A DNA stretch of 64,000 nucleotides, from positions 1 through 64,000 of the forward strand of contig BDIU01000459.1 in NCBI GenBank assembly GCA_002118135.1, given 5' to 3'. Positions 3,887 through 52,615 of the stretch are shown here, one piece after another. Below the pieces are notes generated by a model. That model saw nothing but the letters and a program-made list of their open reading frames with translations. It made no database searches and was not told the DNA's origin. The translations under genes were made by a program, and so were the position numbers. Position 1 is the first letter of the stretch. Each line of letters starts with the position of its first letter. This DNA comes from Trebouxia sp. TZW2008 (taxonomy: Eukaryota > Chlorophyta > Trebouxiophyceae > Trebouxiales > Trebouxiaceae).

Positions 3887-4140
3887 CCAGCATTTGGAGC
3901 ACGTGCTGGAGCATGTACAAGAGCAGCATGTGTGACTTGAATCACTGGCAGCAGACTGCAGAACATGTGAACTCTTCCCAATGCATGTCACTACATCAAA
4001 TGACTTCTTGTGGATTGCTGCACCCTTTACTTCCTTAATTCAACAGCTGGGGCATGTGCTGGAGCATGCACTGGACCTGCTGCATGTGTGTGACCTTCGG
4101 GCACTGATACAATGCTGCAGACCACGTGAATCTTCTCTGG
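3887..4140 (-). repeat. two decayed copies of the AUX1-like gene's last-exon tail
   Basis: The 3' end of the intact last exon (4186 to about 4280) encodes a Cys-Tyr-Gln-Cys-Pro motif followed by an Ala/His/Pro tail. It recurs at about 4043-4130 (YQCPK still readable) and, more weakly, at about 3887-3970, with a spacing near 150 bp. The copies lie downstream of the real stop codon in gene orientation, so they would fall in the 3' UTR or beyond. Confidence 0.75.
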
Positions 4141-4185
4141 TTAATATGAGACGTTTTGCCATGAAGTGCTGCCCATGTAATGTAA

Positions 4186-7100
4186 TTATCCGACAGCTGG
4201 GGCGTGTGCCGGAGCATGCACAGGGGCAGCAGCATGCGTAACTTTGGGGCATTGATAGCATGCTGCAAACCAATGGAAGGTGTGTATGTTCTTGATCAGC
4301 TGCTTGATCGCATAGGTCAAGCCTGTGACTGAGCTGGTGGAGAAGAAGAAGACTGCCAGGAAAATGTTGAGCGCAAACAAAGGCTTCCAATCATACAGGT
4401 GGAAAGGCCTGCAGGTCATCAAAGCACATCATCAGTGGTGATACATGCTGTTGTTCATTGAGCAGCAAACAAGCCATGTCTTGCAGCCATGCATCAGTGC
4501 ATGTTGCTCTCTAGTCAGGACGTCGGCAGTGCTGCAAGATGCTGAAGATGCAGATGCAGAAAGCCTCAAGCAAAGACTTGAATGGCACACAAACATTTGC
4601 TTCAGAACATGCTGACGTGCAAGGCAGAATGGCTGCAGTCCAGAGCATTGCATGCACTTATGCCTGCAAATTGGGGCAGGGACAAATCATGTCTCAGCAC
4701 CGCAGCCCACATATTGATGCATGCCTTCATTGCCAGGGTATTGGTCAGAAAGCACACAATATATGTTCTCAGGCTACACTTGAGCGCAGTGACTCTCACT
4801 GCAATGCCTAACAGCTCAGGGCTGGAGGGTAGGGGGGGGGGGGGAAGGGGGCCAAAAGGGTGTGGGGTGGGGCAGGGGGGTCAAGGGTGTTGGGGGGGGG
4901 AGAGGGAGGGTGAGGGGAGGGGGGTGGAGGGACTGGCTTACCATGGAATGTTTTTGGGGCAGTTCTCCCTACGCTCCGTGGTTCGGTAATACCAGGTGAA
5001 AGCCAAAGTGGGTAGCACAAAGCCTTGGACTCCTCTGGTCAGTGCATCAAACAGACTGTTGATGGTGCCGTAAAAGGGTATTGCAAGGGCTATCACCCAT
5101 ATTGCGGCCACTGCAAATGACAGAAATCTGGTCTAGTCACAGCAGTGTTGACATCATATTCAGCTTGCATGCAATGAGGCCAAAGGTGTTGTGGAGCCTT
5201 CACAAGAGATGGAAGCTTGAAAAGCTGCTGTAGACAATGCAAGCAAGCATCTGGCAGGTTGGCAAGCATGCAAGGTGGTCATTTTGTGGCAAACAAGACG
5301 TAGCGCTTGCTGTCTGCTGTTTGTATGCATGTGTTGGACATATTGACAAAGCAAATGTTGCTGTGCTGGGCTGTGCTGTGCTGTGCTATGCGGTCAAGCG
5401 GCAAAAATCAATGCCCAGAGTAATGTAGTAGTGAAGAAAGCTGAGTCCATGCACAGCTCAAGTCAAATACAAACGAGCTCAAATTTGTGTGCAGGATTGA
5501 ACAAGACACTTTGCAGAGACACAGAGTCCAGCTCAAGCACATATCAGCCCATTCTTCTTGCAGGGTCAAGAGCAATAGTGCACAGCACAGGAGTCACAGG
5601 AGGCTTACATACAGGGATCCTGGAGGGTAGTCTGATGTACCAAGGGCGGTGGTGGGTATGTATGATCCTCTCCCACATGTACAGCAGCGGGTTGGTATGA
5701 AGGGTGAAAGCAGAGATGTTGTGAATCAGCATGATCCAGACGCTGACAACCTTCCAGCCACTCTTGGGCAGAATGGAGTAAACATTGGCTGCAAAGTGCA
5801 ATGGCAAGTGTGAGTGTGCCTGTAAGGATTGAGCCTCTCACATGTATAGCAGGAGCCTGGTGTAAAGGGTAAAAGCAGAGACGTTGTGAATCAGCATGAT
5901 CCACACACTGACAACCTTCCAGCCACTCTTGCGTAGAATGGAGTAAACTTTGGCTGCAAAGTGCAATGGCAAGTGTAAGTGTGTGTGTAAGTATTGAGCC
6001 TCGCTCATGTGAATTGCAGGGGGTTGGTATGCAGGGTGAAGGCGGAGATGTTGTGGATGAGCATGACCCACCCGCTGACAACCTTCCAGCCACTCTTGGG
6101 TAGAATGGAGTATACAGTGCTGCAAGTGCCAAGCAATAGTAAGTTGAAGTCAAGGCATACATTGCAACCATCTTTTCACTGTGGCGTCTGCCATGCTGAT
6201 GATTGTATCATGGCAGCAACCAGTGGGTGGCCATACAAGGCATCATCACGCATGACGCAGAGTCCTGCGCAACTCTGTCCTCTGTCTTGACAATAGCTTT
6301 TAGATGGGTGAGGATGCAGCTACTGCAGGCAATATGCAGTTGCTTGCCTGAGCTGTTGTACTTTTGACTGAACAGGTACGCAGAATGCTAGAAGCTCGCA
6401 GACAGGAATAGCAGCCCCGTTTTTGGTGCCTTGCCACACGCAGCGCTGGGCTGTGCTGTGCTGTGCTGTGCTGTGCTGTGCTGTGCTGTGCTGATCTCAC
6501 ATGCATGCCGGACCGGGCATGCATAAAGACCAACTTGACGCCTCAATTGCAGCCCCTCTTGCTTGATAGACAATTGTTCATGATGCACAGAACAGATACT
6601 CTGATGTCTACCTTGAGTGAGAATTTGGGTTGGGAAGGCCAGGACAATGGCAGCTGAGTGAGGAATCAGTAGCAGAAGGTTCCAGATCCAGGCGCAGAAG
6701 GATGCAATGTCCATTTTGCGGCTCTGTCTCATAGCATCCATCATCTCCCTGTGATTGTGCAGCAATGCTGCTTGATCAGAACACAGCCATGATGCAGAAA
6801 TTGAGTGAGGTCAACTTGCTGACATGCGCCTTCACTGAGCTGCTAGTCACTTTGGATGATGCAAAAAGGCAAAAGACTGCAACAGCAATGTCATGGCAGA
6901 CCAATGTTCACAAGAGAAGCCGGCAGCCATCATACTTGTCATGGTGTGCTTCATGCAGCGAGATGCCCTCAGTGAGCAACCACAGAGCATGTGTCTGATG
7001 AATGCTCAATGCACGTATAGTAAACTCTCATTGTAAGGACACTTGATGTAAGGACAATCTCGATGTAAGGACAGCACCAATGGTAACCAGTCACTGCATT

Positions 7101-10100
7101 CTGACTGCATTGGCCCCTCTGAGTAAGGACAATTTGATGTAAAGACAAATTTCTTGGTAGCCAAAGCAGTCGTTATAAAGAGAGTTTACTGTGACTATGT
7201 TGCAGGTTGGCAAGGCCAGGAAGATAGAGAAGGTGGAGTGGCAATGAGAGGGGTAGGGAGGGTTGGGGAGGGGTTTGAGGGGTGTCATGCGGGGGCATGC
7301 GAGGGGTAGGGACGGGTAGGGAAAGGAAGGGGGCCAGGGCAAATGGGTAGGGCAGTAAAGGGCAGATTAACATGAAGATACCCACATCTGAATGGGGTGG
7401 CCACCAGCCCCAATCACAGCTGCTCCTAGGAAGAAGCCTTGTGCACTGACAGGGCCCCTGCATGGCACAGCCCTTATCAAGCCCCAAGTAAGAAAGCCCT
7501 GTGCACCATGCATAGGCATTCAAAAATTGCACTGTGCAAGTATTTTGCTATACTTTTGGAGTTTGGTGTCAGATCAGGAGTGTGCAGGCTCATTGGAGGT
7601 CGTGCTTTTTGATGTTCTGCAAATGGCAAGCTTGCAAGCATCTGAGGTTGCTATGGGTGTAGAAGGCAACACCAGACATGCTGTGGTGCTGCACAGCACC
7701 AAACGTCTTTGAGCATGCGATCACTGTGTTTCTACATCGCAGTTGATTCAAAGGGACACAACCTTTGGTGCCTCATTGCGAGCAGGATCAAGAATTGCCA
7801 GATTGTGTGAGCACTGTTCGACGCTGCTACACCCACTTGAAGACGCAGCAAACAACTTGTATACCAGCTCAGATTGTGTGAGCACTGTTCGACGTTGCTA
7901 CACCCACTTGAAGACGCAGCAAGCAACTTGTATACCAGCTCAGCAACTGGTTGTTATAGCAGCAAGGAGCAGGACCTATGCAACCCTCATGTTTGTGTCA
8001 TCAGTGCAAGCAATTTGTTTGTCCGTTTATTGCTTACTTGGTGAAGATGCCAGGTTGTCTCCCATATTTTGCAGCATGCATGAGGAAATACAAGCAGCTG
8101 TAGTTTGTTGCAAACAGAGCAATGACATTCAACTGTTTTGCCACTGGTCTGGTGGAAAACAAGCATTTTGAGTGCTGATGCATTGCTTACTTGGTGAAGA
8201 TGCCAGGTTGCCTGCCATGCTTTGCAGCATAGATGAGGAAGTACAGGCAGCTGTAGTTTGTGCCAAACAGGGCAATGATGTTCAACACACGCACTGAGCG
8301 GAAGCTGGGCAGTAAACCAAACGCCAGAATGACTCCACCCAGTATCAAGCTCCATTGCCTGCACCAAACGCACTCAAAATGTCACCCAATCAAAGTTGAG
8401 ATAGAGCTTCTTTGCTCGCGTGCCATTAATGAGAAAGACAAACAGGGGAGTGTGATTTGCTCTGCTCACGATGATCACTCCATTGGCATCCACAATGTGA
8501 CATTTGTGTTTTGTAGAGATCAAATTACACCTAGAATTGCACTGGACATCACGAAGGTGGCAAAGGCTGTACCTGTCAGTCACTCTAATACACTCAAAGA
8601 GAACCTATATCTCAGCCGCATGCACAGAGGTTGTCAACATGTCAGACTGTGCGTGCTGGTCACCCGCGAATTGGACAGCAACGCACTCATCAAAGTAAGA
8701 TCAAGCAGACTGATGCATAGGAAACACCTTGCTTGTGCCTACCCCAACCGACATTGCTATGGTTGCATGTTGCTGCACATGTTGCCATCACTTCAGCAAA
8801 TACAGCAACTGCAATGTCAACATAACATGGCAAATTCCAGAGTCAATGGTGTTGACATAAGTCACCACATGAGCAGCCAAGACCAACGATTTGTAAAATT
8901 CCTTGTCAATGGATTGCTGACTGCCAACAGATGCCACCGATAGTTCAACAGCTCACAACTGTTGATGCATTTATAAAAATGATGACTAACCGTTTGTCAT
9001 ATTTGCTGTCAATGGACTGCTGACTACCAGCAGATGCCACAATCTGTGCAATAGCAGTGCCAAGAATGGACAGGGCTGTTAGGATCTGCCCCAAAAGGCC
9101 AAACCAGCGGCCCAGGAAGAAGCCGATGATGTCATGGTATTGAGTCACGGCGCTGCGGCGCTCGTAGCCGTTTGAATCCTTGCTGTCATACCAGCTCCCA
9201 CGCTTGACCTGTGTCAAACAGCATGTCAGGCTCATGACAGAGGTTTTGGCAATCGACAGGCTGCACGTACTCTTTATACTGAAGCTTTGCAGCAGGAATT
9301 TGCAGGGTGCATTTTTGTAACGGGTGCCTTGCGTCAATACGATAGTAGAGAAGAGCCATTATGTAAGCTGACAGGGCTGAATCTGATGTTTTTTGCTTGA
9401 ATGCCATGCTAGCGCTTCTTCTACAGCAATGCTCAGCAAGTTGCATTCAGCTAGGCTGACTGCATACGCGGGAAACATTGAGAACAGGACAAACAGACAC
9501 ACAAACAAGCTGACCAGCAGGCAGGCAAGCAGAGAAGGGCAGAGGCTTAGAGCGACAGAGAGACAGACAGCACAAAGAGCCCTGTTTGGTCGCTACAGCA
9601 AACAAAAGAGGGTTTGGGTCGGGATTGAAACACTTGGAAATCAGCAAGCCATCTATAACCTCATCCAGAGGAGGCAGGGAAAGGGGCATATCACAACATG
9701 CTTACCATGATGCGTTTCCTCTCCAGATACAGAATGACCAACAGCCATAGAGTGTAGAAATTGAGGATCCCAACTCCTATGGCAATGATAATGGCTGGAA
9801 TGATACCCATCAAAGCCATCTGATATGGGTAGGTCAGAATAACTTGCCCAACCTGCACTTTGTAGCATACAGTGAATGCCTATTGACAGCGTTACATGTC
9901 AGATACCTGTTTACAGAGTTCATTTTGGGAAAATGGGGTGCTATGCAATGTGATCATTCAGTCCTTGTTACACTTCAAATGTATGTTGATTCATATTGAT
10001 TGATGACACAAGTGACATGATGTGATGTGATGTGATACCAGACTGTACAAGGCAAATACCATCACGCAGAAGAAGAATGGCTTACAGCCTGAGGAGGCAT

Positions 10101-11279
10101 TGCTCAGAAATGCGTCCCAAGCTGTGTCCCGCTTCTGATGGTGAAGTCCAGACAGTAACGAACCTTATATCACATGGCATTGTGACGGCAAACTTCAGCT
10201 CTGATCATGCAGAAGAAGAGGAGTGGCTTACAGCTGAGGAGGCATTGCTCAGGAAAGCGTCCCATGCTGTGTGCCCCTCTGAAACAAAGCCCTTGGCAAA
10301 TTGCAATGCCTTGTGGCGCTCTGAGTGCTTGCTGTTGTAATTCTGTCCCACCACTGCAGCCATTCAAGTCTTCAGGTCAAAAGTAGAAAGACATCACTGC
10401 AGCCAATGCAGCCTTTTGACTCAATGGCAAAATGGCAAATTGCAATGCCTTGTGGAGCTCTGAGTGCTTACTGCTATAATTTTGTCCCACCACTGCAGCC
10501 ATTTCAGCCTTTGAGCCCGAAGGCAAGGCCGCAAAAAAGCAAAAATTGATGTGGCAAAGTTTTAGCCTGTTGTCAGTTTGGCAATCAATGCGCCCTCATA
10601 GGCCACTCAGGAGAGCGGTGCATGAGCTGCTGCAAACGACTGGCAAAGTCTGTTGGTGCAGGGATTGAAAAGATTCAAAATTTATGCATTGACGTGTTCC
10701 TTGGCACTGAAAATAAAAATGAAGGGCATTCATCGATGTGTCTTCAAACAGCGACTTTTGTGATGCTTTGTTTGTCAGAAGGGTGAAGTTGTTGTTCACT
10801 GTCAGTGTGTTCTGGGCACTGACATTACAAGCGATATGCATCAAGCAATGGGTATCAGACAGGAGTTCTGTGATATTATGTCTGTCACTGCAGCTGTAAA
10901 AAGTTTTGCCAACATTCCCAAATTGTCGGCATTGCTAATGGTGATTTGACTTTCTCAGATTAGCGTCATAAAGGATGCCAGCGTGTGCAGATATGCATGA
11001 CAGATGCATGACAGATGCATGACATATGCCATACAGCATGACAGTCATATCATAATCACCTGCTAAGTTGTCTTTCGCTTTTGGGTCGTCAAGTTCATGT
11101 TCATCTTTTAGAAATGCATCTGCTTTACCACCAACTTTGCCATCTTTTCCTGTGTGTAAGGTTTCAGCAGAATTCGGAGAAGAGCGGCCACTGCTGAATG
11201 ATCCTTTAAATAGTGCTGCACTGCTGTTTGCAGTCTTCAATTCCAGGTCTGCATGTGCAAAACGCAACCTGTTGAACAT
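4186..11279 (-). CDS. AUX1/LAX-like auxin influx carrier (AAAP amino-acid/auxin permease)
   Basis: This is a multi-exon membrane permease of the amino acid/auxin permease family, expected to be a proton symporter. Likely exons in gene order are 11060-11279 (hydrophilic N-terminus), 10232-10331, 9706-9852, 8991-9208, 8191-8358, 7382-7457, 6612-6744, 5609-5788, 4942-5110 and 4186-4408. Phases agree from exon 2 onward. The join from exon 1 to exon 2 does not fit, so an exon may be missing there. The exon 6/7 join uses a weak acceptor. Landmarks follow plant AUX1 in order: VGQVILTYPYQM; QYHDIIGFFLGRW; LPSFRSVRVLNIIALFGTNY; IPHSAAIVLAFP; LIHNISAFTLHTNPLLYMWE; VLAAIWVIALAIPFYGTINS; and a C-terminal KNIHTFHWFAACYQCPK, the AUX1-type Cys-x-x-Cys ending. 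Length is about 540 residues, against 480-490 in plants. Substrate is inferred: algal members may carry amino acids such as tryptophan rather than auxin. Most exons have decayed partial copies beside them. Confidence 0.9.
4828..4935. repeat. G-rich (sense-strand C-rich) tract in an AUX1-like intron
   Basis: The + strand is almost pure purine with long G runs, including a run of 13-14 G around 4830-4845. It starts a few bases inside the donor of the exon ending at 4942, so the transcript is C-rich there. Several G-quadruplexes could form on the + (template) strand. Confidence 0.85.
5609..6113 (-). repeat. tandem triplicate of an AUX1-like exon, only one copy intact
   Basis: Copy A (5609-5788) is in phase with its neighbours and continues to a GTAAGC donor. 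Copy B (about 5838-5955) keeps the CC-start acceptor phase, but a TGA replaces the conserved Trp codon (Tyr-Met-stop instead of Tyr-Met-Trp-Glu). Copy C (about 6005-6113) has lost one base after its acceptor, is out of phase and ends in TGA. All three read almost identically over YSILPKSGWKVVS and the following helix. A and B differ mainly near the 3' end. Confidence 0.9.
6449..6494. repeat. (TGCTG)n microsatellite
   Basis: About nine uninterrupted GTGCT units in an intron of the AUX1-like gene. A short related run occurs at about 5364-5391. Confidence 0.9.
7018..7191 (-). mobile_element. MITE copy 1 (pogo/Tc1-like termini) in an AUX1-like intron
   Basis: A 174-bp element with terminal inverted repeats reading CAGTAAACTCTC (left end TAGTAAACTCTC). 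The interior carries repeated TGTAAGGACA motifs and a central GTCAGAATGCAGTGACTGGTTACC-type block (on the opposite strand). The same element recurs at about 26693, 29296 and 53032. It has no coding capacity. The TA target duplication is not preserved on both sides of this copy. Confidence 0.85.
7205..7350. repeat. G-rich (sense-strand C-rich) intron tract
   Basis: GGGGTAGGGAGGG-type runs lie just inside the donor of the exon ending at 7382. This is the second such tract in the same gene. Many GGG runs on the + strand give G-quadruplex potential. Confidence 0.8.
7798..7942. repeat. 69-bp perfect-like tandem duplication in an AUX1-like intron
   Basis: Two adjacent copies starting ATTGTGTGAGCACTGTTCGA and ending TATACCAGCTCAG differ at only two positions. 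This is a recent duplication without recognisable coding content. Confidence 0.85.
8040..8291 (-). repeat. duplicated donor half of an AUX1-like exon
   Basis: The intact exon (8191-8358) ends with the reading ...GTNYSCLYFL...GRQPGIFTK and a GTAAGC donor. A second copy of this donor half, with about 20 bp of intron, lies at about 8040-8140. It reads ATNYSCLYFLMHAAKYGRQ and keeps the donor. The 5' half of the exon is not duplicated. Confidence 0.85.
8885..9050 (-). repeat. duplicated 3' end of another AUX1-like exon
   Basis: The end of the exon 8991-9208 (encoding ...ASAGSQQSIDSKYDKR) is repeated in decayed form at about 8885-8945, downstream in gene orientation, with the donor no longer intact. 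Confidence 0.75.
10030..10510 (-). repeat. partial copies of the AUX1-like second exon
   Basis: The intact exon 10232-10331 reads GHTAWDAFLSNASSA before a GTAAGC donor. Its donor half recurs downstream at about 10060-10140 (DTAWDAFLSNASS readable in another frame). Its acceptor half recurs upstream at about 10430-10500 (SKHSELHKALQFA). This one exon shows both sides of the array rule. Confidence 0.85.
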
Positions 11280-12490: not shown

Positions 12491-12505
12491 GTCAAATTCA
12501 CGTGG

Positions 12506-12646: not shown

Positions 12647-12649
12647 TCA

Positions 12650-13660: not shown

Positions 13661-13727
13661 AAAACCAATTTCTGACCTGCCATTTATTCCAGAGCACATT
13701 GACACAATTGTTGTGTCAGCAATTGCG

Positions 13728-33224: not shown

Positions 33225-34460
33225 ACACAAGAAAAAGAAAAGACAAGTCTATGCCGTTAGGCGTCATAGCAGGAGTCTCTGTCTAAAGAGACAGCCCGGG
33301 AACCTATAGATGCACAATCTTGAGTTGATTTTGCTCATGCAAGCTGCCGTCATGACATCTGACGGCATTCACTTTTTTTGTCTTTTCCCTTGCACATTGC
33401 TTGCTGAATAGAACAGGACGGGCAAATTCGTCAGACATGCCAATTTGCTGCCCTTTGTGGCCAAACTGCTGCTCAGGGTTTGGCTTTTGAGACACAATGG
33501 TCCCACAGGCATCTAAGCATTTGCAGCACAATTGCATTGTACTCATGCTGAACTTGTGTTTTGATGGCTAGCTGTGTACTGATGGTCAAAGCTGTTGTTT
33601 TTTCGATGAGCATTTGAGTGTCAGTTGCAGCTTTGCTGCATTGAGCATAAGAATCTGTGAGCATGAGCCATATGAATACACTGCCTGGCAGCCTTTTGCC
33701 AAGATCTTTGTTTTCAAATTGAGTTGCTTTTGGAATAAGCGCAGTGTACGTATCAACTTGACTCTGCTTTTGACAACGGCACAGCATTTGTATGAGGACG
33801 AAAGCCCGCTGATATGCATGTGCAGGATGGAACGTTGTTGCGTTGGTGCGTCATTTTCAGTTTTTGGTGCGTAGGTGCGCGTACCAAACGCTTAAGTGCA
33901 GCAAGGAGGAGGGTCGGTGGAAGTTGAACCGTTCTGGCAAAGATACGCATGAATCTTTGGAGATGTTGCAGACATGGCTGTGCATGCAGCATCTTGCAAA
34001 ATTGCAGCTTGCATGCATTGCTGGCTGAACACCCTTCAGCATGAGGCAAAATGTTCTCAAGCAAAGACTGAGCAATTCCAGATTAAACGTGTTGAAATAA
34101 CACGATTCGTTGCAAAGAGTTGAGTGTCCAGTAATAGGCGTGTTGAAATAACACAAGGCCCCTTTGGGCTGTTTGGTGCACCTGCAAGTAGCTAGCAAGT
34201 AGCTGGCACCACCTATGTCAGAGTTGCCGACCGAGGTGACCAACGCAGCAATCAAGTTTGAACCTGCAGGCAGGCAAGCACAAAAGTGAAGGTGCATGGG
34301 TGTTTGCTGGCTGGCTGACTGCTGCCTTGGTTGTGTTGCTGACAGGGGACTCTGCTTTTGTGCCCTGCAAACAGCAAAAGATCAAAAATGATACAGCAGC
34401 AGATATTTACCTCGTGATAAAAGTCCTGAAAGCGAGAGGGCCACAAATGCTGTTGGGACC
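33225..34460. other. unassigned region, possible - strand exons
   Basis: Open - strand frames exist at 33304-33546 and 33473-33787, but I recognise no family and cannot join them. Two copies of a CGTGTTGAAATAACAC motif, itself palindromic (GTGTT/AACAC), lie at about 34088 and 34139. Confidence 0.3.
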
Positions 34461-35200
34461 ATGGCTGACAAAGCAGAGGCTGACAATGGCTGTCTGAACA
34501 AAGGCTGACGATGGGTGTCCAAGCAAAGGCTGACAACAGCTGTCCAAGCAAAGCTGGCAATGGCTGTCCAGACAAGGGCTGACAATGGCTGTCCAAGCAA
34601 AGCTGACAATGGCTGTGCAAACAAATGCTGACGACGGCTGTTTAAGCAAAGGCTGACAACAGCTGTCCAAGCAAAGGCTGACAACGGCTGTCCAAGCAAA
34701 GCTGACAATGGCTGTTCAAGCAGGGCTGACAATGGCTGTTCAAGCAAAGCTGACGATGGCTGTGCAAACAAAGGCTGACGATGGCTGTCCAAGCAAAGGC
34801 TGACAACAGCTGTCCAAGCAAAGGCTGACAACAGCTGTCCAAGCAAAGGCTGACAACGGCTGTCCAAGCAAAGCTGACAATGGCTGTTCAAGCAAAGCTG
34901 ACAATGGCTGTCCAAACAAGGGCTGACAATGGCTGTCCAAGCAAAGCTGACGATGGCTGTGCAAACAAAGGCTGACGATGGCTGTCCAAGCAAAGGCTGA
35001 CAACAGCTGTCCAAGCAAAGCTGGCAATGGCTGTCCAGACAAGGGCTGACAATGGCTGTCCAAGCAAAGCTGACAATGGCTGTGCAAACAAATGCTGACG
35101 ACGGCTGTTTAAGCAAAGGCTGACAACAGCTGTTCAAGCAAAGCTGACAATGGCTGTTCAAGCAAAGCTGACAATGGCTGTCCAAGCTGACAGCATCTGA
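34460..35200. repeat. minisatellite, about 24-bp unit, with higher-order structure
   Basis: About 30 units of the type GCTGACAATGGCTGTCCAAG + CAAA, with 24-26 bp spacing. A block of about 120 bp (AAGCTGGCAATGGCTGTCCA ... TTTAAGCAAAGGCTGACAAC) at about 34545-34665 recurs almost exactly at about 35015-35130, showing a higher-order repeat near 470 bp. Long open frames on the - strand arise from the repeat and are not evidence of a gene. Confidence 0.92.
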
Positions 35201-41100: not shown

Positions 41101-44100
41101 GTCTACCTGCAGGGTACAAGCTGCTCTGCTGCAAAGTACTAATACTTTTCATAATAATACCTGCTATGGAAGTGTGCTTGGTGCAGATGTGCGCTGCAAC
41201 AGAGGCATCTGAAGCGCCTACAGCATAGCCCACATCTGCTGCTGACAGAGCTGTTAGATCATTGTAGCCATCGCCACAGAACACCACTGTCTGCTGTAGT
41301 CCCTGCAGCCACGGCATGCTTGCCTGTGTCAGTATACTATGTGGCAACTAGACAGGAGCTGCTCTTCTGCGCTGCTGATGCTGATGCTGATGTCAGCCAT
41401 GTAGGCTCTTTATTGCGCTGCTGATGCGACAGCTGCTGCTGACAGAGCTGTTAGATCATGGATTTCATTGTCACAGAATACTACGGTCAGCTGTAGTCCC
41501 TGCAGCCATGGCATCCTTGGCATTGCCAGTAGCAGCCTGACAGGAGCTAGACAGGGACTGTTGTATTGCGCTGCTGATGCTCATGTCAGCAAGCATCTGC
41601 TGCTGACAGAGTCGTTAGCTCATTGATGCCATTGCCACAGAACACAAGTGTCTGCTGCAGTCCCTGCAGCCATGCCATGCTTGCAAGTGTCAGTAGCAGC
41701 CATGCAGGACCTGATTTGCTGCACTGCTAATGCCTGTGTCAGGTGTAGCTAGGCTAGGGGAACTGTTGTCTGCGCTGCTAATGCGCCCACAGCATAGCCC
41801 ACATCGGCTGCTGACAGCGCTGTTAGATCATTGTATCCATCGCTGCAAAACATCACTGTTTGCTGTAGTCCCTGCAGTCATGCCATGCTTGCAAGTGTCA
41901 GCAACAGTTATGCAGGCCCTGTTTTGCTGCACTGCTAATGCCTGTGTCAGGTGTAGCTAGGCTAAGGGAACTATCTGTCTGCGCTGCTGATGCTGATTTC
42001 AGCAAGCATCTGCTGCTGACAGAGCCGTTAGATCAGTGATGCCATCGCCTCAGAATGCCACTGTCTGCTGTAGTCCCTGCAGCCATGGCATCTATACTTG
42101 CGTCAGTAGTTGCCAAAGAGGACCTGTGTCACTGCACTGCCGATGCTGATGCCAGTGCTGCTGCTGGTGTCAGTAGCAGCCCGCAGGACTTGTCTGGCTG
42201 CATGCTTATGCTGATGTCGGCAATAGCTGCTGCTGACAGAACTGTGAAATCGTTGATGCCATTGCCACAGAATACCGCTGTCTGCTGTAGTCCCTGCAGC
42301 CATGGCATGCTTGCCTGTGTCAGTAGCAGCCTGACAGGAGCTAGACAGGAACTGTTGTATTGCGCTGCTGATGCTGTTGTCAGCTAGAGAAGGCCTCTCA
42401 TATTGCGCTGCTGATGCAACGACTGTGCTGCTGACAGAGCCATTAGATCATTGATGCCATTGCCACAGAACACCACTCTTTGCTGCAAACCCTGCAGCCA
42501 GACAGGATCTGTTGCAATGTGCTGCTGCTGCTGATGTCAGCAACAAATGCTGCTGACTACGTGCTCAGCCATAGTCCCTCACCACGTTGAATGCAAAGGT
42601 CTGTAAGAAGACTGTATGGAACAGATAGCTTCTTGAGCTGCACGGAACAGATAGCTTCTTAAGCTGCACTTGGGTACCTGACTGAGTCTTGCAATGCTTT
42701 GCTGCAGTTGTTTTGGACCCAATGTGTCAAGCAAACTCATGTGTAGGTCCCTGACTGCTATGAATGCACGGATGCAGCAAATTGGCTGTCAGACAGAGGG
42801 CTTCTTGAGCTACATCTCATTGCCTGAATGCGTTTTGGAGTGCCTTGCTGCATTTGGTACTGTCCTGACGTGGCAAGGAAGCTCATCAGCTGCCCCTTAT
42901 GATGCAGTTGTCTGCGGTTAGTATGTTGGCAAACAGGTATGAATGCTGCAACGGACAGACAGCTTGGGAAGCTACATCTTCAGCTACATTACATGTATGT
43001 GTCGTGGAATGCCTTGCTGCAGTCGAAATAGCCAAAGCAAGCTCATCAGCTGCCCTTAATGACACAGTTGTGTTCGGTATGTTGGCAAAGAGGTGTGAAC
43101 TGCTGTAGTGAATAGACAGCTTTTTTGGCTATACTTTGAGCTGCATTACCTGTATGTGTCTTGGAATGCCTTGCTGCAGTTCATATAGCCCAGATGTGCC
43201 AAACAAGCTCATCAGCTGCCCTTGATGACGCAGTTGTGTTCGATATGTCGGCAAAGATGTGTGAATTGCTGTAGTGGACAGACAGCTTTTTGGGCTACAC
43301 CTTGAGCTACCTCACCTGTGTCCTGGAATGCCTTGCTGCAGTTCACACAGCCCAGATCTGCCAAGCGAGCTCATCAGCTGCCCTTGATGACGCAATTGGG
43401 TTCAGCATGTCAGCAAAGAGGTGTGAACTGCTGTAGTGAACAGACAGCTCTTTTGGCTACAACTTGAGTTACGTTACCTGTATGTGTCTTGGAATGCCTT
43501 GCTGCAACTGGTACAGCCCTGCCGTGCCAAGCAAGCTCATCAGCTGCCCCTTATGATGTGGTTGCATACGAGCAAACACCACTGCACTCTGCAATACAGC
43601 TTCCAGCAGTGACTCATCCGGGAGCTGCAGCAACAGCTGGAAAGCCTCCCCAGTGACTGCGCATTTCATCTGCCCTTCAGCGAGGGCAGTTGTGGCTTGC
43701 CTAGGGTCTAGCGGCTCTCCTCCATCAGCTTTGGAAAACCTAAGCCTGCTGGGCTTCACCCATGACTGTGATGTAGACACGCCTGAGCGCTGTACAAGGG
43801 CTGACAGAGACTGTGAGGAACTGGAATCCTGGTTCTGAAGCAAGCTGTTTGGATCTTGATGGCTGGATTTGTACAAAGCTGATGCTGTGGCCATTACATA
43901 ATGCACATGCCTCGTCTGACTACCACTTGACTGTTCAACTGCTAAGTGAGCTGCATGACTGCCCACAGGACTGATTCTCTCGCACTGTTCAAACAGGGGG
44001 TTGCAGTCCGTCTGTGTGAAGGTCTGAAGCTGTGACAGGACATTGGACGACTCAGGTGGAAGGGAATCTGACAAGGCAAGGCTGTCTGTCTGTGCTGACA

Positions 44101-47100
44101 AGAAAGGCTGCGACATGGAACCTTGTGATTGTGACAGTACAGGAGGTTGCGGGGACAATGGATCCAGGCGTATGGAAGAATGTCTTTTATTCAGAGCTAC
44201 ACGTACATCTGAAAGGGATGTTTGACTGCTATCCACTTGTTGCATATGACTCATGCCTGGGCGCTGACTAATGGCAACAGCTGCAGCTCGCTGCACCTCA
44301 TGTGACTGTGAGCGTGATGACTCATGTGACTGCCGCTGTGACCCTGCATACCGCTGTGACTGTGAGCGCGATGACTCATTTGACCCTCGCTGTGACTCTG
44401 AAACCCGCTGTGACCGTGAGCTTGATGACTCATCTGACTGCTGCTGTGACCCTGACGGCTGTAACTCACCCCTTGGATCCGTCTGTGCCCCTGTCCGTGT
44501 CTGCATCCCTGACTGCGTCTGACCATCTGTCTCTGCACAACTTGGCTGCTGCATAACAGCTGACTGCTGCTGATCACTGGCTGCGACGTCCTGCTGCAAT
44601 GGGCTGATGTCAGCTGCAGTTGGGCTATCCTGTAGAGTGTCTATCACCATGACTGGGCGGTCGGGTTGCAGCATTCCTACATCTGTGGCTATGGCTAAGG
44701 CTGTGTGATGGTAGTCCCCCGTCACCATCAGCGTCCTGATGCCTCCCCTGCACAAATGCATGTCCATGGTCACAGACTTGCATTTGGAAGCAGTGACTTC
44801 AATGGTAGTGATAGGGACGTGTACAGCAACCAGACACCAATAACAACAGTCATGTGTGGCTATTGCTAAGGCTGTGTGCTGGTAGTCTTCTGTCGCCAGT
44901 GTCCTGCTGCCTCCCCTGCATGGACGCATGTCCACAGTTGCATTGTACTCAGCAGCCACGCCAATACCAGCGGCAGCAGCAGCGGCATCAGGAATACAAG
45001 CTTCAGAAGCTTGAGCTGCATCAGCATTTGTGCCAAGTGCAGCTGCAACACAAGGACAATGCGCACCAGAGGTAATGACGGCAGAGGACTGCCAGCACAG
45101 CAATGACAGCAACACCCACAGTAACAGTAGTGGTAACACTGACAGTAACAGCAGCGGTGACACCAATGACCATAGTACACTCAGCCAGGAGGCTGAGTTA
45201 GGAGCAGGGATTAGTTGTGTGATGCCAACAAAGCAAAATTGCAGGAACAGCACAGTCTGATAACACATGTCGGAATTCTGTTGGCCTTAGGGGACCAGAT
45301 GCAAGAGCCTTACTTCTGCTGTAGTGAGAGCACAAATTTCTTGAGTTCAGCTCGCACAGGCCTGGTCAGCACTATCAGGCCAATCAAGGTTTTTGCATTC
45401 ACAGTTTTAGTCGTTTCTACAAGTGCAGGAGCCTTACTTCTGCTGTAGTGAGAGCACAGACTCCTTGGAATCTGCCCGCACAGGGTTGGTCAGCACTATG
45501 AGGCCAATCAGGTTGAAGCCAATGGTGTGCTCCTCCACTTGCTGTTGAGACATGCGCTTCAGGTCTAGCTGCGCCACATGTGGCAGGGATCCAACTGCTA
45601 TAGCCATCAGCCTGAAACTCTTCCTGCTGTACTGGTCCACAATCTGCAGTGCAGCCACATCAGTGATGCATGCTGGTCAACAACTTGCTGCTGTGACATG
45701 CGCTTCAGGTCTAACTGAGCTTTATGTGGCAGAAATCCAACTGCTATAGCCATCAGTCTGAAGCTCTTTCTGGTGTACTGGTCCACAATCTGCAGTGCAG
45801 CCACATCAGTGATGCATGCTGGTCAACAACTTGCTGCTGTGACATGCGCTTGAGGGCTAACTGAGCTTTATGTGGCAGAAATCCAACTGCTATAGCCATC
45901 AGTCTGAAGCTCTTTCTGCTGTACTGGTCCACAATCTGCAATCAGGCAGGCAGCTGTGATATGTAGTGGTCGACACCCAACACAGTGTTGATTGTGTTTG
46001 TGCAGAGCCATGTGTGGCAGAAACCCGACTGCTATAGCCATAAGTCTGAAGTTCTTCCTGCTGTACTGGTCAACAATCTGCAGCAGCATGGTCCGTGATG
46101 TTGAGACATGTTGTTGACGTCCAACTGAGCCGCATGTGGCAAACAGGAGTGATACATGCTGGTCAACATCCGACCTAGAAATCAAGGACAGCATCATCAC
46201 CGTTGATCAAGGCAATCTCTTTCTGTGAGCTTGAGGTCCAGCTGAGCCACATGTGACAGGAATGCTACTGCTATAGCCATTAGCCTGTAACTATTCTTAC
46301 TGTACTGGTCAACAATCTGCAGCCAAGTGCTGCTGAGCATGCTTTGCATCTTTGGGCTGCAGTCAGATCTGTGTTGCATGCCTTTCGGCACTCGATGAAT
46401 GTCCACAATGGAAACAAGGTAGTCAGGCATTTGTGCTAATACACTGAGGTCTTTTGTTGGGCTATAAATGCAAGAATGTGATGCATACGAATTTGCTCAT
46501 GCCTTTTGCACCTGCAAGCCTGATCATGTGATTGTGCAAAGCTTGTTGCCAATTACCTGGTCAAAGTCTGATGGCACAGAGCCAGGCTGCACCAAGCTCT
46601 TGATGGCTGTGTGAGCCCCCTTCACAAAGACCAGGCCTGTGCTTGATGGGTAAGCGTTTGACAAGACCACAGCAGCAGACTTGAGCGTTTGGCTGCTGAA
46701 GCTGAATGCCCTCAGCAGTTTCAGCTCCACCATGCTGAGTTGTGACAGTCTGTCTGGTTTCCTTGGAAGGGCAACAGTTGCTCTATCCTGCAAAGCCAAA
46801 CTGCAAAGCGTGAAGTATGTCCATGTCATGCATGCTTTGCTCAAGGACTTGCAAGAAGCTCACGGTCAGTCTCAGAAATGTCAGCTCCACCGCGTCAACG
46901 TCTGCCTTATTTTGTCGGGCAATGCAACAGTTGCCCTGTCCCGCAAATCTGAGAGCTTGTTTGCAGATATATATGTGCAGACAAGCTCTCAGATGGCTTG
47001 CCTGCACATTGCAGGGTTCCCGTATGGGGTTCTCTGAGCACTTTCAGCTCAATCATGCTGAGCTGTGACATCCTGTCTGGTCTCCTTGGCAATGCTACAG

Positions 47101-50100
47101 ATGCTCTATCCTGCAAGGTCAAGTGAGACAAGCAGTTTCAAGCTGATACACTATCATTGAATGCAGCGCTGGCATTGGCAGGCAGGCGAGCTGCATAGCA
47201 GCGCACATCAGCATAAGCGTAAGGTAAACGTCTTGTACACCGAGTCACAAGGAACTATAGCTCACCACAAAGCGCGCTTCAACCATCTTGAACAACATTT
47301 GCTCCACATCGTCGCCAGCAATCTGCAGCTTGTTGATCATGGTGAGCCCATTGCACACAGCCACTGCCTGCTTCAGCTTATTGCCCCAGCGCACTGAGCT
47401 CTGCTGAAGACCCTTGCTCTCCCGATCCACAATGGGAATCACACCATGAACCTCTGCCTGTATTGAAACATGTCCTTTCCAGGCATGAAGCTCATATGCA
47501 ACTCTGCTTGAAGGGAAAGGTTCACTTGTTGATCATGGTGGGTCCATTGCACACTACCACTGCCTGCTTCAGCTTATTGCCTCAGCGCATTGACGTCTGC
47601 TGCAGACCCTTCCCTCTCCCCTTTCACAATGGGCACCACGCCATGCACCTCTGCCTGTGCGGACAAGCGCATATTGTAGAGAAGTTTTGACTCCTTAGAA
47701 GAGAAATCATGACATCCTGCAAGGCAACCAACTGGTGAGCTTGTTGCCCCAGCGCACTGACTTCTGCTGCAGACCCTTGCTTTCTCCCTCCACTATGGGG
47801 ACCATGCCATGCACCTCTGCCTGCATTGACAATTGCGTTGCCACAACAGCCACTGCTTTGGTGCTGTGCATCTCTGACTACATAGGAAGGTGCACATTCA
47901 CAGCCATTGAAGCTATGACAACGTGATGTAGCTGAATGCGGCACAGCGACCAGCAAAGCATCACTCAGTGTCTTGTACACCTAGACTGATTGTAAAGCGC
48001 CCAATTCCTCACGCGCAGTGCTGTCAAGCATTGTGAAGAGGTGCTGCTTGTGATTTAACATCAGACAAGATGCATTCAAAAGGCAAGCGCTGGTGCACAA
48101 CCAGTCCAGCTGCTTACTGTGCTGCCAGTGAGGGAGCCAGGTTTGTCGAAGCACACAATGTCGGTCTCCGCAGTCAGCCCCAGCGCCTTTGGAAACACCA
48201 GGTCTAACCCCAAGCGCCCTAACCTGACTTTGCTAACCGCCCCCACCCACAATCGGGCAGTTGGGATGCCAGAAGGGGCAGCATGGTTGTGGTTCAACAA
48301 CAGACCAGACAAACTCTGAAGGCAAACGCCCACATCATGACACTGTTGGTCTGCTTTGAGTTCTGCTACTTACCGTGCTGCCAGTGAGGGTGCCAGTCTT
48401 GTCAAAGCACACGATGTCTGTCTCTGCAGTCAGCCCCAGCGCCTTAGGAAACACCAGGTCTAGCCCCAAGCGCCCTAGCCTGAGTTTGCTGACTGCCCCT
48501 ACCCACAGTAGGGCAGTTGGGATGCCAGGAGGGGCAGCATGCACTACCACGTCCAACAGCCTCAGGATGATGGCATGGGCTGTTTGCTGGAAGTGCCCTG
48601 CCCTGATGGCATACGGGATGAAGATGATGAACTGCACTAGGAGGCAGAATGCGTACTGCCTGAAGATGTCCTGCATGCCATGAGCTTGCTAAGTTGACCA
48701 ACAATCTTAGGTAATGCCAGTGTGTGTGCTGACACATGTGTGGCATGACAGTTCAGCCCACAAAAGTAGTTGCACAGTGCAGTCCCCATATATTGTGCAC
48801 ATACATCACTAAGCAATTGCAGCCTGCACAAAAGGTCGAATCCAGCTGCATTGCACAGTAGTGACAGCCCTCATGGTCCTGTTTGCACAGCCATTGCACA
48901 TTTCACAGCAGACTTTCCATTGCTTGTATAACGCAGTGACTGCAGCCTGCATGATTGACAAAGCTTGCCTGCTGCAGGGGGTGCTTGGCATGGCGCAGAT
49001 GTGAGGGGGCTATGAGGTGGCAGTTCATGTTGTTCAAGGTGCTGTGCAGCCCACCAGGCTTTTCATGCAGATGAACTATACTGCAACTGCAGTGGGCATA
49101 GTCTGACTGGGCACATGCATTGCAAAGCATTGCTTGCCCTGCTGCAAGGGGTGCTTGCGCTCAGCAACACAGCAACCTGCTTAGTGGAGTGAAGTTGATG
49201 CACGTGCAGCAGCAGAGCTTGCCTGCTGTAGGGGGTGCTTGGCTTGGCGCAGGTGTGAGGGGGCTATGAGCTGGCGGATCATGTTGCCCATGGTGCTGTG
49301 CAGCCCATTCCTGACCACCATGGCAAGCACCTCATCCTCCATATCCTCACTATTCCACACCTGCCACAAAACTGTTGTGAATGACTTTCATGAATGGCTC
49401 CTGCCAGTTAGTCCTGGGCTTTAACCTGTCAATCATGTCAATTACTGGAGTGCGCAACTTCCTGTTTGAGGGCTTACATTGCATCAAAAGTGCCTCACGG
49501 GGTTCAGAACTTGTTGATTAACCACAACAATCTGACAAATCACCAACACTAAGGATTTAAATATCAGTTCTGGCTACAAAGGATCCTTGCCACAGCTGCA
49601 TTCAGTTTGACCCCTGCCATAAACAGGTCGTGTATGCTGATTGAGCACTGCTGCAACAAGGTCCGCCTGCTGTGACTGCCCCTTGCTGTGTAGAGAGCAA
49701 TGCATGTCAATATCTGGCAGTTCAAGAGAAGAATGAGCCTTGCTGAGAGGTGCGTGTCTGATAGAGAGCTGGCGCTTGCTAGTTGACCCCAGATTGTGTC
49801 AGAAGTTGATGGCGGAAGGCAGAAGTGCATGCAAGTTGACCACTGCCATGTGCCACGCAGCTGAGACGCACCTGTTGCACCATGGTACCGGCATGGATGG
49901 TACAGCTGTGGTAGCGCTCTGGGTCATACTTCACTCCAGGGTCTGGCACATAGCTGGACTTACGCACTTGAGCTGCCTGCAAGCTGATGCCAAAGGGGCT
50001 TAGCAAACCAGCCAGTTGGCTCAGCTGGTATGCATGGTATGCTTTTAGGCGAAGCATGCTTGTAAAACAACTGACAACACGCAGCCAACCAAACAGCATG

Positions 50101-52144
50101 CTGTGCTGCACCCACTGCTCAGCACACAGCGATCTGACATCTGCATAAGATCAACACTCTGTACATAAGATGCAAACTGGGTAAGAGGCATTCAGCTGTA
50201 GCTTACATGTATGCAGCAAACTATCTGCCAAAGCCAATGTGCTCAGCGCATATGACTAATCAGCATCACAAATGAGGCATGATTAGTTATGGTCGGTCAA
50301 CTTGCCTGACAGCATGGACTCTTTCACAAGGCAGCTGCCGCAAGTCACAGGTACCCTTGCCCCATGTTGCAACAAAAGCAGAGCCCAAATCAATGATGAT
50401 GAAGCAGCCAAAACATCAGCCAGATGAAGCAGAAGAAGAAGAGATTCAGCGTACCTCTCCAGACAGCATGGATTCTTCCACAAGGCAGCTGCCACGAAGC
50501 AGCACCAGGTCACATGTGGCTTGTCCAGACTGGACCACCACCACATCACCAGGCACCAGTCTATACGACAGCATTGCCCTGACCCACCCGCCTTGCACGA
50601 CTGGCATGATGCGTCTCTGATTGATCAAGCCCATCATTGTCACATGGCGCTTGCGCAGCGTGAAGAAGAGTCCAAGGTTGGCGGCTAAGCTGAAGACGGA
50701 CAGGAGTGTTGGGTAGACCCAGTAGCCTTTGTACACCAGGTAGATGCACTCAGCGTACTGCAGGCAGGAAACATGGGATACAGCGGACATGAACACATAC
50801 GTGTGCCTGGGTATGCCTGGAATGCTGCCTGTATGAGCACGACAGGACCAAAACATCCCTGGAATAGCAAAGATAGCCACAAGAGCTGCTGCTATTGCTG
50901 ATGCTTGCTGTTGTTGATTGAGATGCTTGCTGCTTGGGTGCTCCGCTGCTGTCTTGGTTGCTTCTGGGTGTCAATGCTTGTTACACCAATGCAGTGGTCA
51001 CGTGCAGCATTCAACGAACTGAAAACACTGTTTTCCCACTTTGGCTCAAAGCTGTACATAGTCAACATGCCGCAGATAATGAACGATCAGCAATGCTGTT
51101 GAAGCTCATATGGGGGCACCGTGGCAGCTGTCAGACAGTATGCACACCACAGCAAAACTTCTACCATTCTGTAACATCATTGCATATTGTCTGGTTGCGT
51201 CATCATGGACATGTAGTCATTGCCACTTTGGCTCAAAGCTGTACAAAGTCAACATGTCGCAGGTAATGCATTGTCAGCAATGCTCTTGAAGCACATATGG
51301 GGCCACCGCAATAGTTGTCAGACATTATGCACACCACAGCCAAACTTCTACCGTTTTGCGGTACCATGCACATTGTCTCATCGCATGGTTGCGGACATGT
51401 AGTCATTGCCAGTATGCGGCACAAGCAATAAGCCTTGTTGGTTGGCTAAAGCATGTAAAACTACTCTCTCTCTTACCTGAAGAGCAAACAGCGGTATAAC
51501 TGCATCCTTCAAAGCAGCTTTGATGAACTCAGCTCTATCGTACAGGCGCTTCTTGTTGGCGTACAGTGTGACCAAGTTACTGCGGGCAGCAGCTTGAGTC
51601 TCATTGAATCGCTTCCAATCTGCACCTACATAAATTACCGACAGCAAGAGCCAAGTCAGATAATACTTTTTCTGTTGATGAGGTTTTGACCCTCAACTTG
51701 TATTTGGTTGCTGCAGGACATCATGTTGCTCTACTTGTCTGTCTGCAGGATCAATACATTGCGACCATGCAGGCTTCTGAATGAGCAAATGCACAGCGTG
51801 ACTGAGTCACTCATGATTTGCCTTATGACTGACACTGAGGAGAGAAGCTTGGTGTGCAGCTGCCGCAATGGTGTTCTGTAGCTGACTTCACAAGTTTGTC
51901 TTCAGAAAGACAGTCTGAAGCAAGGGTCTGAAGCTGGGAGGGTGCAGCTACCTTGACTGATCAGGGAAAGATCATCTAAGGCTCTGCAGATCTGGCCCGG
52001 AAGCGGCAGAGGCATGTCTGGGATGAGCACAAAAGCCTGCTTCTGTGACGAGTATACATATGTCTTCAGGAACAGCTTGAAGACCCTCAACGGCTTAGCT
52101 TTGGTCGCTGCACTGCTCACACCAGACTGCAACACACTGGTCAT
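38196..52144 (-). CDS. P5-type (P5B-like) P-type ATPase, extended by exon-copy arrays
   Basis: A polytopic cation pump; P5B members (ATP13A2 type) move polyamines in lysosomal or vacuolar membranes. Intact exons in gene order: about 52144-51902 (N-terminus incomplete); about 51647-51480; about 50760-50449 (SYRLVPGDVVVV, CLVEESMLSGE, the actuator loop in place of TGES); about 49990-49865 (HAGTMVQQ); about 49365-49225; about 48676-48370 (APPGIPTALL, then CFDKTGTLTG with the phosphorylated Asp at 48383-48403); about 47465-47260 (AVAVCNGLT, IAGDDVEQ); about 46790-46555 (FSFSSQ, VFVKGAH); about 45655-45440; about 44760-43469 (IRTLMVTGDYHHTALAIATD, a long Ser/Gln-rich insert, VVFARMQPHHKGQL); 41302-41161 (VVFCGDGYNDLTALSAADVG); about 40905-40826; about 40395-40310; about 39175-38945; and 38519-38196 (DPVTSALWLTAMLQLSGL, then TGA). 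P5B is favoured by PPGIP (PPALP-like) and the exon order. The substrate is inferred. Joins near 38520-38945 are unclear. Confidence 0.9.
38944..40025 (-). repeat. six tandem copies of an ATPase membrane exon start
   Basis: The sequence encoding GMDFVALTITAAAAASLP recurs with a period near 170 bp at about 40000, 39830, 39660, 39480, 39310 and 39150. Only the last, 3'-most copy continues into the next transmembrane hairpin (FGVIVAGVFIATIGQTAVLG). Part of that hairpin is itself copied at about 38740-38900. Confidence 0.92.
41161..42500 (-). repeat. seven tandem copies of the ATPase GDGxND hinge exon start
   Basis: Copies of the acceptor side, CTGCAG + GGACTACAGCAGACAGTGGT + ..., lie at about 41302, 41500, 41670, 41875, 42085, 42300 and 42490. 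Only the first listed (3'-most in the gene) keeps GDGYNDLTALSAADVG intact and a following donor. The others show changes such as GDG to DNE- or GNG-like readings and stops. Confidence 0.9.
42680..43560 (-). repeat. five to six tandem copies of the donor side of the large ATPase exon
   Basis: The end of the exon that stops at 43469 (encoding HHKGQLMSLL...YQLQQGIPRHIQ) recurs downstream with a period near 160 bp. Recognisable cores (CTCATCAGCTGCCCTTNATGA on the + strand) occur at about 42885, 43050, 43215, 43375 and 43540. Confidence 0.88.
43900..44680 (-). other. Ser/Gln/Arg-rich insert with 16-residue repeats in the ATPase P domain
   Basis: Within the exon 43469 to about 44760, between the TGD and FARMxP motifs, about 300 residues are low-complexity. 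Three or four related units resemble SQRQSHESSRSQSHE, and SQ dipeptides are very frequent. The same position is variable in other P5 ATPases but usually much shorter. It is probably cytosolic, disordered and phosphorylatable. Confidence 0.8.
44680..44950 (-). repeat. duplicated TGD exon start in the ATPase
   Basis: The intact reading (LCRGGIRTLMVTGDYHHTAL) is preceded in gene orientation, at about 44845-44945, by a copy reading PCRGGSRTLATEDYQHTALA, in which the MVTGD motif is destroyed. Confidence 0.9.
45290..46340 (-). repeat. copies on both sides of an ATPase nucleotide-domain exon
   Basis: Acceptor-side copies (IVDQYSRKSFRLMAIAVG and close variants) lie upstream at about 45800, 45935, 46080 and 46320. 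A donor-side copy (the + strand GAGCCTTACTTCTGCTGTAG block) lies downstream at about 45305-45400. The intact exon is about 45440-45655. Confidence 0.9.
46555..47125 (-). repeat. three copies of the ATPase FSFSSQ exon start
   Basis: Copies of the stretch reading DRATVALPRKPDRLSQLSMV occur at about 46790 (intact, continuing to FSFSSQ), 46930 and 47115. Confidence 0.85.
46947..46994. repeat. 19-nt inverted repeat with 10-nt loop
   Basis: ATCTGAGAGCTTGTTTGCA at 46947-46965 pairs with 46976-46994 with one mismatch around GATATATATG. It sits in the ATPase exon-copy array. Confidence 0.9.
47260..47850 (-). repeat. three copies of another ATPase exon start
   Basis: The intact exon (about 47260-47465, ending with the IAGDDVEQ region) is preceded in gene orientation by decayed copies at about 47515-47650 and 47735-47825. 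All share the GCCTGCTTCAGCTTATTGCC and CCACNATGGGNACCA blocks on the + strand. Confidence 0.85.
48110..48500 (-). repeat. duplicated phosphorylation-site exon, second copy with broken motif
   Basis: The donor half of the exon (GAVSKLRLGRLGLDLVFPKA through the phosphorylation motif) recurs 250 bp downstream at about 48119-48270, with very high identity. There DKTGTLT reads DKPGSLT and APPGIP reads APSGIP. Confidence 0.93.
48960..49365 (-). repeat. duplicated ATPase exon end (LIAPSHLRxAKHPLQQ)
   Basis: The intact exon at about 49225-49365 (GLHSTMGNMIRQLIAPSHLR) has a downstream copy at about 48965-49055 reading GLHSTLNNMNCHLIAPSHLR. A third fragment is near 49130-49155. Confidence 0.85.
50290..50560 (-). 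repeat. duplicated ATPase actuator-domain exon end
   Basis: The end of the intact exon (ATCDLVLLRGSCLVEESMLS) recurs frameshifted at about 50290-50365, where the + strand reads TGACAGCATGGACTCTTTCA versus AGACAGCATGGATTCTTCCA in the original. Confidence 0.88.
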
Positions 52145-52615
52145 GAGTGAGAAGGCATAAGACGCCGCTTGAATACCCTCAACGGCTTAGCTTTGGGCGC
52201 TGCACTGCACACACCAGACTGCAATCCACTGGCATGAGTGAGAAGGCATAAGATACAGCTTGAATACCCTCAACGGCTTAGCTTTGGGCGCTGCACTGCA
52301 CACACCAGACTGCAATCCACTGGCATGAATGAGAAGGCATAAGATACAGCTTGAAGGCCCTCAATGGCTGGGCTTGGGGCGCTGCACTGCTCACACCAGA
52401 CTGCAACACACTGGGCATGAGCAAGAAGGCATAAGATACAGCTTGAAGACCCTCAATGGCTTGGCCTTGAGAGCTGCATGGCTCACATCAGACTGCAACA
52501 CACTGGGCATGAGTAAGAATGCATAAGATACAGCTTGAAGACCCTCAACGGCTTAGCCTTGAGCTCTGCACTGCTCACACCAGACTGCAACAGACTGAGC
52601 ATGAGTGAGATTGCA
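52074..52615 (-). repeat. six tandem copies (about 92-bp unit) upstream of the ATPase N-terminal exon
   Basis: Units contain GAAGACCCTCAACGGCTTAG, CTGCACTGCTCACACCAGAC and ATGAGTGAGAAGGCATAAGA at about 52074, 52165, 52258, 52351, 52446 and 52537. Units 2 and 3 are nearly identical, so this array is young. The 3'-most unit is the one joined to the intact exon. Confidence 0.93.

Follow-up and report, generated by a model that had tools for sequence, protein, structure and literature searches.

In the present study, a 64,000-nucleotide stretch of the Trebouxia sp. TZW2008 genome (contig BDIU01000459.1; hereafter the window), taken from an assembly of 68.5 Mb in 527 contigs, was found to carry arrays of partial exon copies in an aminotransferase gene, an AUX1-like amino-acid transporter gene and a P5-type ATPase gene. 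Tandem duplications over single exon junctions have probably filled the introns of these genes with dead partial copies, one intact exon being kept in each case. Arrays of partial exon-edge copies had been described in a first-pass annotation of the window, and they were recovered here at 19 exon edges (2 in the aminotransferase gene, 6 in the AUX1-like gene and 11 in the P5-ATPase gene). Self-BLAST, by which local repeats were located, returned dozens of direct repeats where that annotation had placed them, most with periods of 70-260 bp, and no local repeats were found in six first-order Markov resamplings of 10-kb stretches. Recognisable exon-edge copies accounted for 35% of the modelled intron bases of the P5-ATPase gene, and for 13% and 11% in the other two genes.

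Exon models were built with a spliced protein-to-DNA aligner using related Trebouxia proteins as templates, which yielded 29 exons in three genes, and copies of exons were located by alignment against the modelled exons. The modelled exons match the proteins of relatives without any use of the copies, and the closest proteins with a named organism all came from Trebouxia. The joined aminotransferase query showed 84% identity to P0001 and 82% to P0002 (Trebouxia sp. C0010); the AUX1-like protein showed 81% identity to Trebouxia sp. C0004, covering 64% of an 81-residue query; and the P5-ATPase showed 53% identity to Trebouxia sp. C0006, covering 72% of a 150-residue query. Across six published Trebouxia genomes, the excerpted text of PMC11523091 gives a GC content of 49.6-51.1% and a size of 63.1-73.9 Mb. 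The modelled genes are as follows.

28379..33221, plus strand: aminotransferase gene, spliced alignment to P0001 and P0002; 8 coding exons, start of the first exon uncertain
28379-28502, 28611-28765, 29124-29284, 29743-29849, 30370-30533, 30970-31178, 31554-31654 and 32965-33221, plus strand: aminotransferase coding exons from the spliced alignment
4243..10353, minus strand: AUX1-like amino-acid transporter gene (Pfam Aa_trans), spliced alignment to P0122 and P0123; 9 exons, ends uncertain
40824..52126, minus strand: P5-type ATPase gene, spliced alignment to P0121 (Trebouxia sp. C0006); 12 exons, N- and C-terminal ends uncertain

Alignment of these exons gave 43 exon-copy matches, two of which represent a single repeat inside the variable part of P5-ATPase exon 10; this in-exon repeat was left out of the mismatch, frame and stop, and private-substitution counts. 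The other 41 matches correspond to about 39 copies, a few copies being matched twice. The 26 matches extending to an acceptor are without exception on the 5' side of the intact exon, and the 12 extending to a donor are without exception on its 3' side, just as the first-pass annotation had proposed. Three matches reach neither edge (two lie inside edge arrays and one ends 4 bp short of a donor), and none of the 41 reaches both splice edges. Moreover, 21 pairs at 43 exon segments of 35 other loci, chosen around protein-kinase profile matches, follow the positional rule and none violates it. The copies are direct and adjacent, as internal tandem duplication requires, and inverted local repeats occurred in one of 26 ten-kb stretches. 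The rule is no pointer to a special system: any tandem duplication across one junction has this geometry, which forces acceptor copies to the 5' side and donor copies to the 3' side. Random local copy-and-paste is disfavoured as an origin because it would often place copies on the opposite side. Copies and exons diverge by 6-32% in their aligned parts. The arrays of the three modelled genes, each identified by its match to the modelled exon, are listed below.

30069..30319, plus strand: a pair of dead acceptor-edge copies on the 5' side of aminotransferase exon 5
32485..32868, plus strand: three copies on the 5' side of aminotransferase exon 8; two alignments reach the acceptor and the third ends 11 bp before it
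10433..10511, minus strand: acceptor-edge copy of AUX1 exon 1
10061..10138, minus strand: donor-edge copy of AUX1 exon 1
8881..8937, minus strand: donor-edge copy of AUX1 exon 3
8029..8133, minus strand: donor-edge copy of AUX1 exon 4
5830..6129, minus strand: two acceptor-edge copies of AUX1 exon 7, period about 167 bp
4043..4124, minus strand: donor-edge copy of AUX1 exon 9
52167..52610, minus strand: five acceptor-edge copies of P5-ATPase exon 1, 92-bp period
50305..50339, minus strand: short (35 bp) donor-edge copy of P5-ATPase exon 3; alignment ends 4 bp short of the donor, donor GT lost
48959..49053, minus strand: donor-edge copy of P5-ATPase exon 5, GC donor in both exon and copy
48103..48285, minus strand: donor-edge copy of P5-ATPase exon 6
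47525..47829, minus strand: two acceptor-edge copies of P5-ATPase exon 7
47034..47122, minus strand: acceptor-edge copy of P5-ATPase exon 8
45683..46322, minus strand: acceptor-edge array of P5-ATPase exon 9, four junction copies and one partial copy; the copy at -146 bp is a mosaic
45300..45391, minus strand: donor-edge copy of P5-ATPase exon 9
44851..44934, minus strand: acceptor-edge copy of P5-ATPase exon 10
42637..43390, minus strand: donor-edge array of P5-ATPase exon 10, period about 160 bp
41429..42500, minus strand: acceptor-edge array of P5-ATPase exon 11, six copies

The last two arrays together occupy 1467 of the 2175 bp of the intron between P5-ATPase exons 10 and 11, which spans 41303-43477. 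The apparent GC donor of P5-ATPase exon 5 lies at 49223, and its copy likewise carries GC. The 54/108-bp repeat at 44301-44466 lies entirely within the low-complexity part of P5-ATPase exon 10 and is the sole in-exon duplication in the modelled genes.

The copies evolve like non-coding DNA so far as a test of private changes reaches, and coding selection acts on one exon. Substitutions confined to a single sequence were counted by codon position in eight arrays of two or more copies: those private to copies were spread 32/51/51 over the first, second and third positions (38% at the third; P = 0.14 against one third), whereas those private to the intact exon were spread 5/3/16 (67% third, P = 0.0009). 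Mismatch rates between copy and exon were 0.109/0.097/0.227, mismatches being about twice as common at third positions, and those between copies were 0.132/0.170/0.269. Coding constraint on the copies, which the third-position-rich mismatches had at first suggested, was rejected because the private-change test puts a clear bias on the intact exon only; coding selection biases the changes of that exon, and the copy-exon mismatches are rich in third positions for this reason. The first-pass annotation had stated that copies keep splice-like ends and lose frame. The splice-end part held in large measure, with AG in 27 of 27 placeable acceptor copies and 9 of 11 donor copies still carrying the donor dinucleotide, but frame is mostly kept: 35 of the 41 matches are without an in-frame stop and 31 without an indel in the aligned part. 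This retention of frame, with a stop in 6 matches and an indel in 10, is consistent with a modest age of the copies.

Furthermore, the intron halves of the repeated units are homologous as well, with z of at least 2.3 in 17 of 19 cases and a summed score of 857 against 205 for shuffled sequence, the first bases beside the splice site included. This homology indicates that the whole unit was duplicated, as internal tandem duplication requires. Exchange between copies has left one clear mosaic. In the P5-ATPase exon 9 copy at -146, diagnostic sites on the left side fall 14:0 to the intact exon's side and those on the right side 12:2 to the neighbouring copy, and none of 5000 permutations was as extreme; this is the pattern that unequal exchange inside exon homology gives. 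Together, the geometry, the codon-position data and the mosaic support the earlier suggestion that the arrays arose by tandem duplication over exon-intron junctions while selection preserved a single exon.

Similar arrays were found at loci across the genome. The 35 kinase loci (260 kb) were taken by match ranking and are thus a non-random genome sample, but they were chosen blind to repeats; their 43 exon segments are bounded by profile limits rather than modelled splice sites. They contained 92 arrays, or 3.5 per 10 kb (69 in 20 larger loci and 23 in 15 further ones), and the median period of the 69 arrays was 145 bp. Arrays straddling a kinase exon edge numbered 12 against 4.6 under uniform placement (2.6-fold, P = 0.001), and no array lay wholly within the 43 segments, against 2.5 expected. 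Two kinase profile matches resembling copies, one in locus L012 and one in locus L034, were left out of these counts. These matches (L012:5271-5423 and L034:1488-1625) look like exon copies, and profile-based annotation may call such copies exons or pseudogenes. That the process is ongoing, as had been proposed, is not borne out: the best pair exceeds 95% identity in only 1.4% of the 69 arrays, although a short-read assembly could have collapsed younger arrays.

The following course of events is the most probable explanation of these observations. Many tandem duplications of about 100-200 bp would arise in the genome, and selection would remove those lying inside a coding exon. A duplication over a single junction would spare the reading frame, since the exon remains attached to the last copy at an acceptor and to the first at a donor. 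The spare copy would land in the intron, 5' at an acceptor and 3' at a donor, and would then decay as a dead fragment. Unequal exchange between copies would enlarge the arrays, and introns would swell. The exon held by selection would keep old edge arrays recognisable and could recombine with the copies; such a conserved, recombining exon may help to explain both the surplus of edge arrays over intron-only ones and the longer survival of exon halves than of intron halves.

Several results weigh against duplication followed by plain neutral decay as a full account. The summed score of 857 for the intron halves falls well below the 1901-2033 predicted from the exon halves at small-indel ratios of 0.05-0.1; given this decay, the exon halves are poor in indels (13 events per 458 mismatches). 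Simulations of units with small indels failed at all five rates tried, and indels of 30-60 bp approached the intron-half decay in some of six settings but gave shorter exon blocks and more indels than observed. AG stands at the homologous place in all 27 acceptor copies with a placeable junction (28 were found; the script placed 26, one more was read by eye beyond an indel, and a partial copy lacking a junction was omitted); the search used exon sequence alone as query and is hence unbiased by the splice site. Of the nine retained donor dinucleotides, seven were found by script and two by eye. Neutral retention of AG would be about 81% per copy at 10% divergence, so that 27 of 27 has a probability of 0.0034 if copies are independent, but copies of the same array are not. 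In-frame stops are fewer than expected at random (6 against 14.9); this deficit is not decisive because silent change in the exon contributes some of the mismatches and may or may not account for it fully. Triples flagged as mosaic at P < 0.02 amounted to 2 of 11 in P5-ATPase exon 9, 20 of 105 in exon 11, 5 of 30 in exon 10 and 1 of 38 in exon 1, two of the three in AUX1 exon 7 and none of the three in aminotransferase exon 8; these triples are non-independent, and flags near unit ends can be artefacts.

A further difficulty is the excess of edge arrays itself. Random duplications with neutral decay, silent exon change and small or large indels were simulated under the same BLAST detection in 15 settings (3 + 6 + 6). 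In the flagged genes, 18 of the 21 arrays lay at an exon edge (18 rather than 19, the 35-bp copy of P5-ATPase exon 3 falling under the 45-bp limit), against fractions of 0.34-0.52 in 13 of the 15 settings (P at most 0.0014). The two oldest or most indel-rich settings gave edge fractions of 0.68 and 0.70 (P = 0.06 and 0.09), with a median edge identity of 75-79% against the 85.5% observed. Pure detection bias was rejected as the cause of the flagged-gene excess because 18 of 21 is improbable in those 13 settings and the two extreme ones mismatch the observed identity. Since the three genes were flagged for their arrays, the 2.6-fold excess at kinase exons is the fairer figure. Kinase edge pairs are 69-89% identical and hence somewhat older than the flagged-gene pairs, which makes detection bias harder to exclude there. 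Edge copies were favoured in detection 1.0-1.8-fold in four settings that match the observed identity and about 3.5-fold in two extreme ones; at 1.4-fold the kinase excess is reduced to about 1.9-fold (Poisson P 0.03), at 2-fold P becomes 0.21, and at 3.5-fold the excess vanishes. Longer detectability could therefore explain part of the kinase excess, or all of it in the most extreme settings, and an edge preference in duplication itself is possible. Edge arrays lie above uniform placement, in support of the earlier interpretation, with part of the excess owed to detectability.

The edge excess would be explained directly if duplication were targeted to exon edges by a border feature, such as nucleosome position or transcription- or splicing-linked breaks, that starts or stops the unit. 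The 12 straddling arrays against 4.6 at kinase exons and the 18 of 21 against 34-52% in identity-matched simulations are in line with this idea, as is the median period of 145 bp, which is close to nucleosome size. We nevertheless consider targeting unlikely, since the aligned exon parts stop at scattered points 30-168 bp from the edge and better detectability of edge copies yields the same excess, the 3.5-fold advantage of the two extreme settings being enough to cover the kinase figure. Moreover, a coding-like window was present in 42% of the 69 kinase-locus arrays against 29% of matched random places by a weak codon-usage classifier, so that many arrays may lie away from exons. Gene conversion from the conserved exon, which would keep copies alike and edge arrays visible for longer, would add to the duplication reading rather than replace it. 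The mosaic copies and the unequal decay of intron and exon halves speak for it, but plain unequal exchange also makes mosaics, and we hold this addition to be a tentative one with well under an even chance. Either such conversion or selection on splice signals could cause the decay asymmetry together with the AG retention.

Selection on splice signals would be expected if the copies were retained as decoy sites tuning the splicing of the real exon. The retained acceptor and donor dinucleotides, the few exon-half indels and the better preservation of exon halves agree with such a role, but the copies show no clear codon constraint, the site is lost in 2 of 11 donor copies, same-array copies are non-independent and neutral retention is already high. 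As a sign of decoy splicing, read from the sequence, the retained AGs are only suggestive, and the role appears improbable. That the copies are mutually exclusive exons is largely refuted. Most matches are free of in-frame stops, as such exons would be, but no match has both edges, hence none of them is a complete exon, and third positions show no clear excess of copy-private changes; alternative exons were rejected on these grounds. An assembly artefact, which the fragmentation into 527 contigs might invite, is equally hard to credit given the divergence of the copies from their exon, the different evolution of copies and live exons, and the recurrence of arrays in both the 20 and the 15 kinase loci.

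Minisatellite arrays in introns are tandem repeats that grow by unequal exchange; unlike them, the Trebouxia unit contains a piece of a live exon, so that a conserved copy anchors one end of the array. Internal gene duplication was reportedly treated by Gao and Lynch in 2009, a work known to us through papers that cite it. Judged from the excerpted texts of PMC3443670 and PMC4974935, both the internal duplication of genes and the gain of introns through tandem duplication are established processes, and the first-pass statement that no system of this kind had been described was too strong as to kind. As cited there, internal gene duplication likewise comprises small intragenic tandem duplications that may span intron-exon borders, but the Trebouxia copies seem to persist as dead fragments in old introns, often serially and, across the sampled loci, with a density of 3.5 arrays per 10 kb. 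In the potato case of intron gain, as excerpted, the duplicated unit similarly has a branch site, a pyrimidine tract, an acceptor and the start of an exon; however, the potato copy joined the mRNA with a new intron, whereas the Trebouxia copies lie outside the exon models and many exons are affected. Tandem exon duplication leading to mutually exclusive exons, as outlined in the excerpts of PMC6071210 (see also PMC9013439), also includes an exon and adjoining intron, but it concerns whole used exons, while the Trebouxia copies are half exons that have a single splice edge and show no clear sign of coding selection. Among the literature titles and abstract openings listed, none pointed to arrays of exon-edge duplications in green algae; the search also took in the Trebouxia genome papers PMC11523091 and PMC12712428 (by term), PMC6652019 (Asterochloris) and PMC3602292. 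For Trebouxia 'A48', PMC12712428 presents a chromosome-level assembly. As far as this search shows, the serial half-exon arrays in old introns, their density, the edge excess and the intron share look new.

The first-pass annotation had named six array genes. Besides the three modelled genes, copies were recovered beside exons of the SDR and COMT-like genes by profile only, while the membership of SLX9 could not be verified, the nearest array stopping 13 bp outside the profile match.

22470..23311, minus strand: copies 3' of an SDR exon (exon by profile match, 23326-23514; splice end not modelled)
26998..27069, minus strand: one copy 5' of a COMT-like exon (exon by profile match, 26471-26638)

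Other repeats were also present in the window. A 25-bp minisatellite, GACAATGGCTGTCCAAGCAAAGGCT, is repeated about 30 times at 34457-35187, between the aminotransferase and P5-ATPase genes and within a 285-codon open frame on the minus strand. At 39104-40027, downstream of the modelled P5-ATPase end, units of about 170 bp share about 70-80% identity and may form the edge array of a last exon that lies outside the model. A 12-bp repeat, ACATGCTGTGCT, occurs in 17 copies at 62936-63139 and overlaps long open frames on both strands.

In conclusion, the origin of intron DNA is an open question, and exon-edge copies make up as much as 35% of the intron bases in the P5-ATPase gene. The arrays have an orientation and are tied to a conserved exon, which allows duplication, decay and unequal exchange to be quantified directly in them. 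They also pose a problem of splicing, namely how the spliceosome bypasses as many as six acceptors that look intact and precede the genuine one. It may be, though we regard it as doubtful, that exon edges in this lineage are preferred sites of tandem duplication or that the copies are actively preserved by conversion or selection, and that introns grow largely from recombining half-exons with intact splice sites. If this were true, it would represent a mode of intron growth in which exons feed their own introns.

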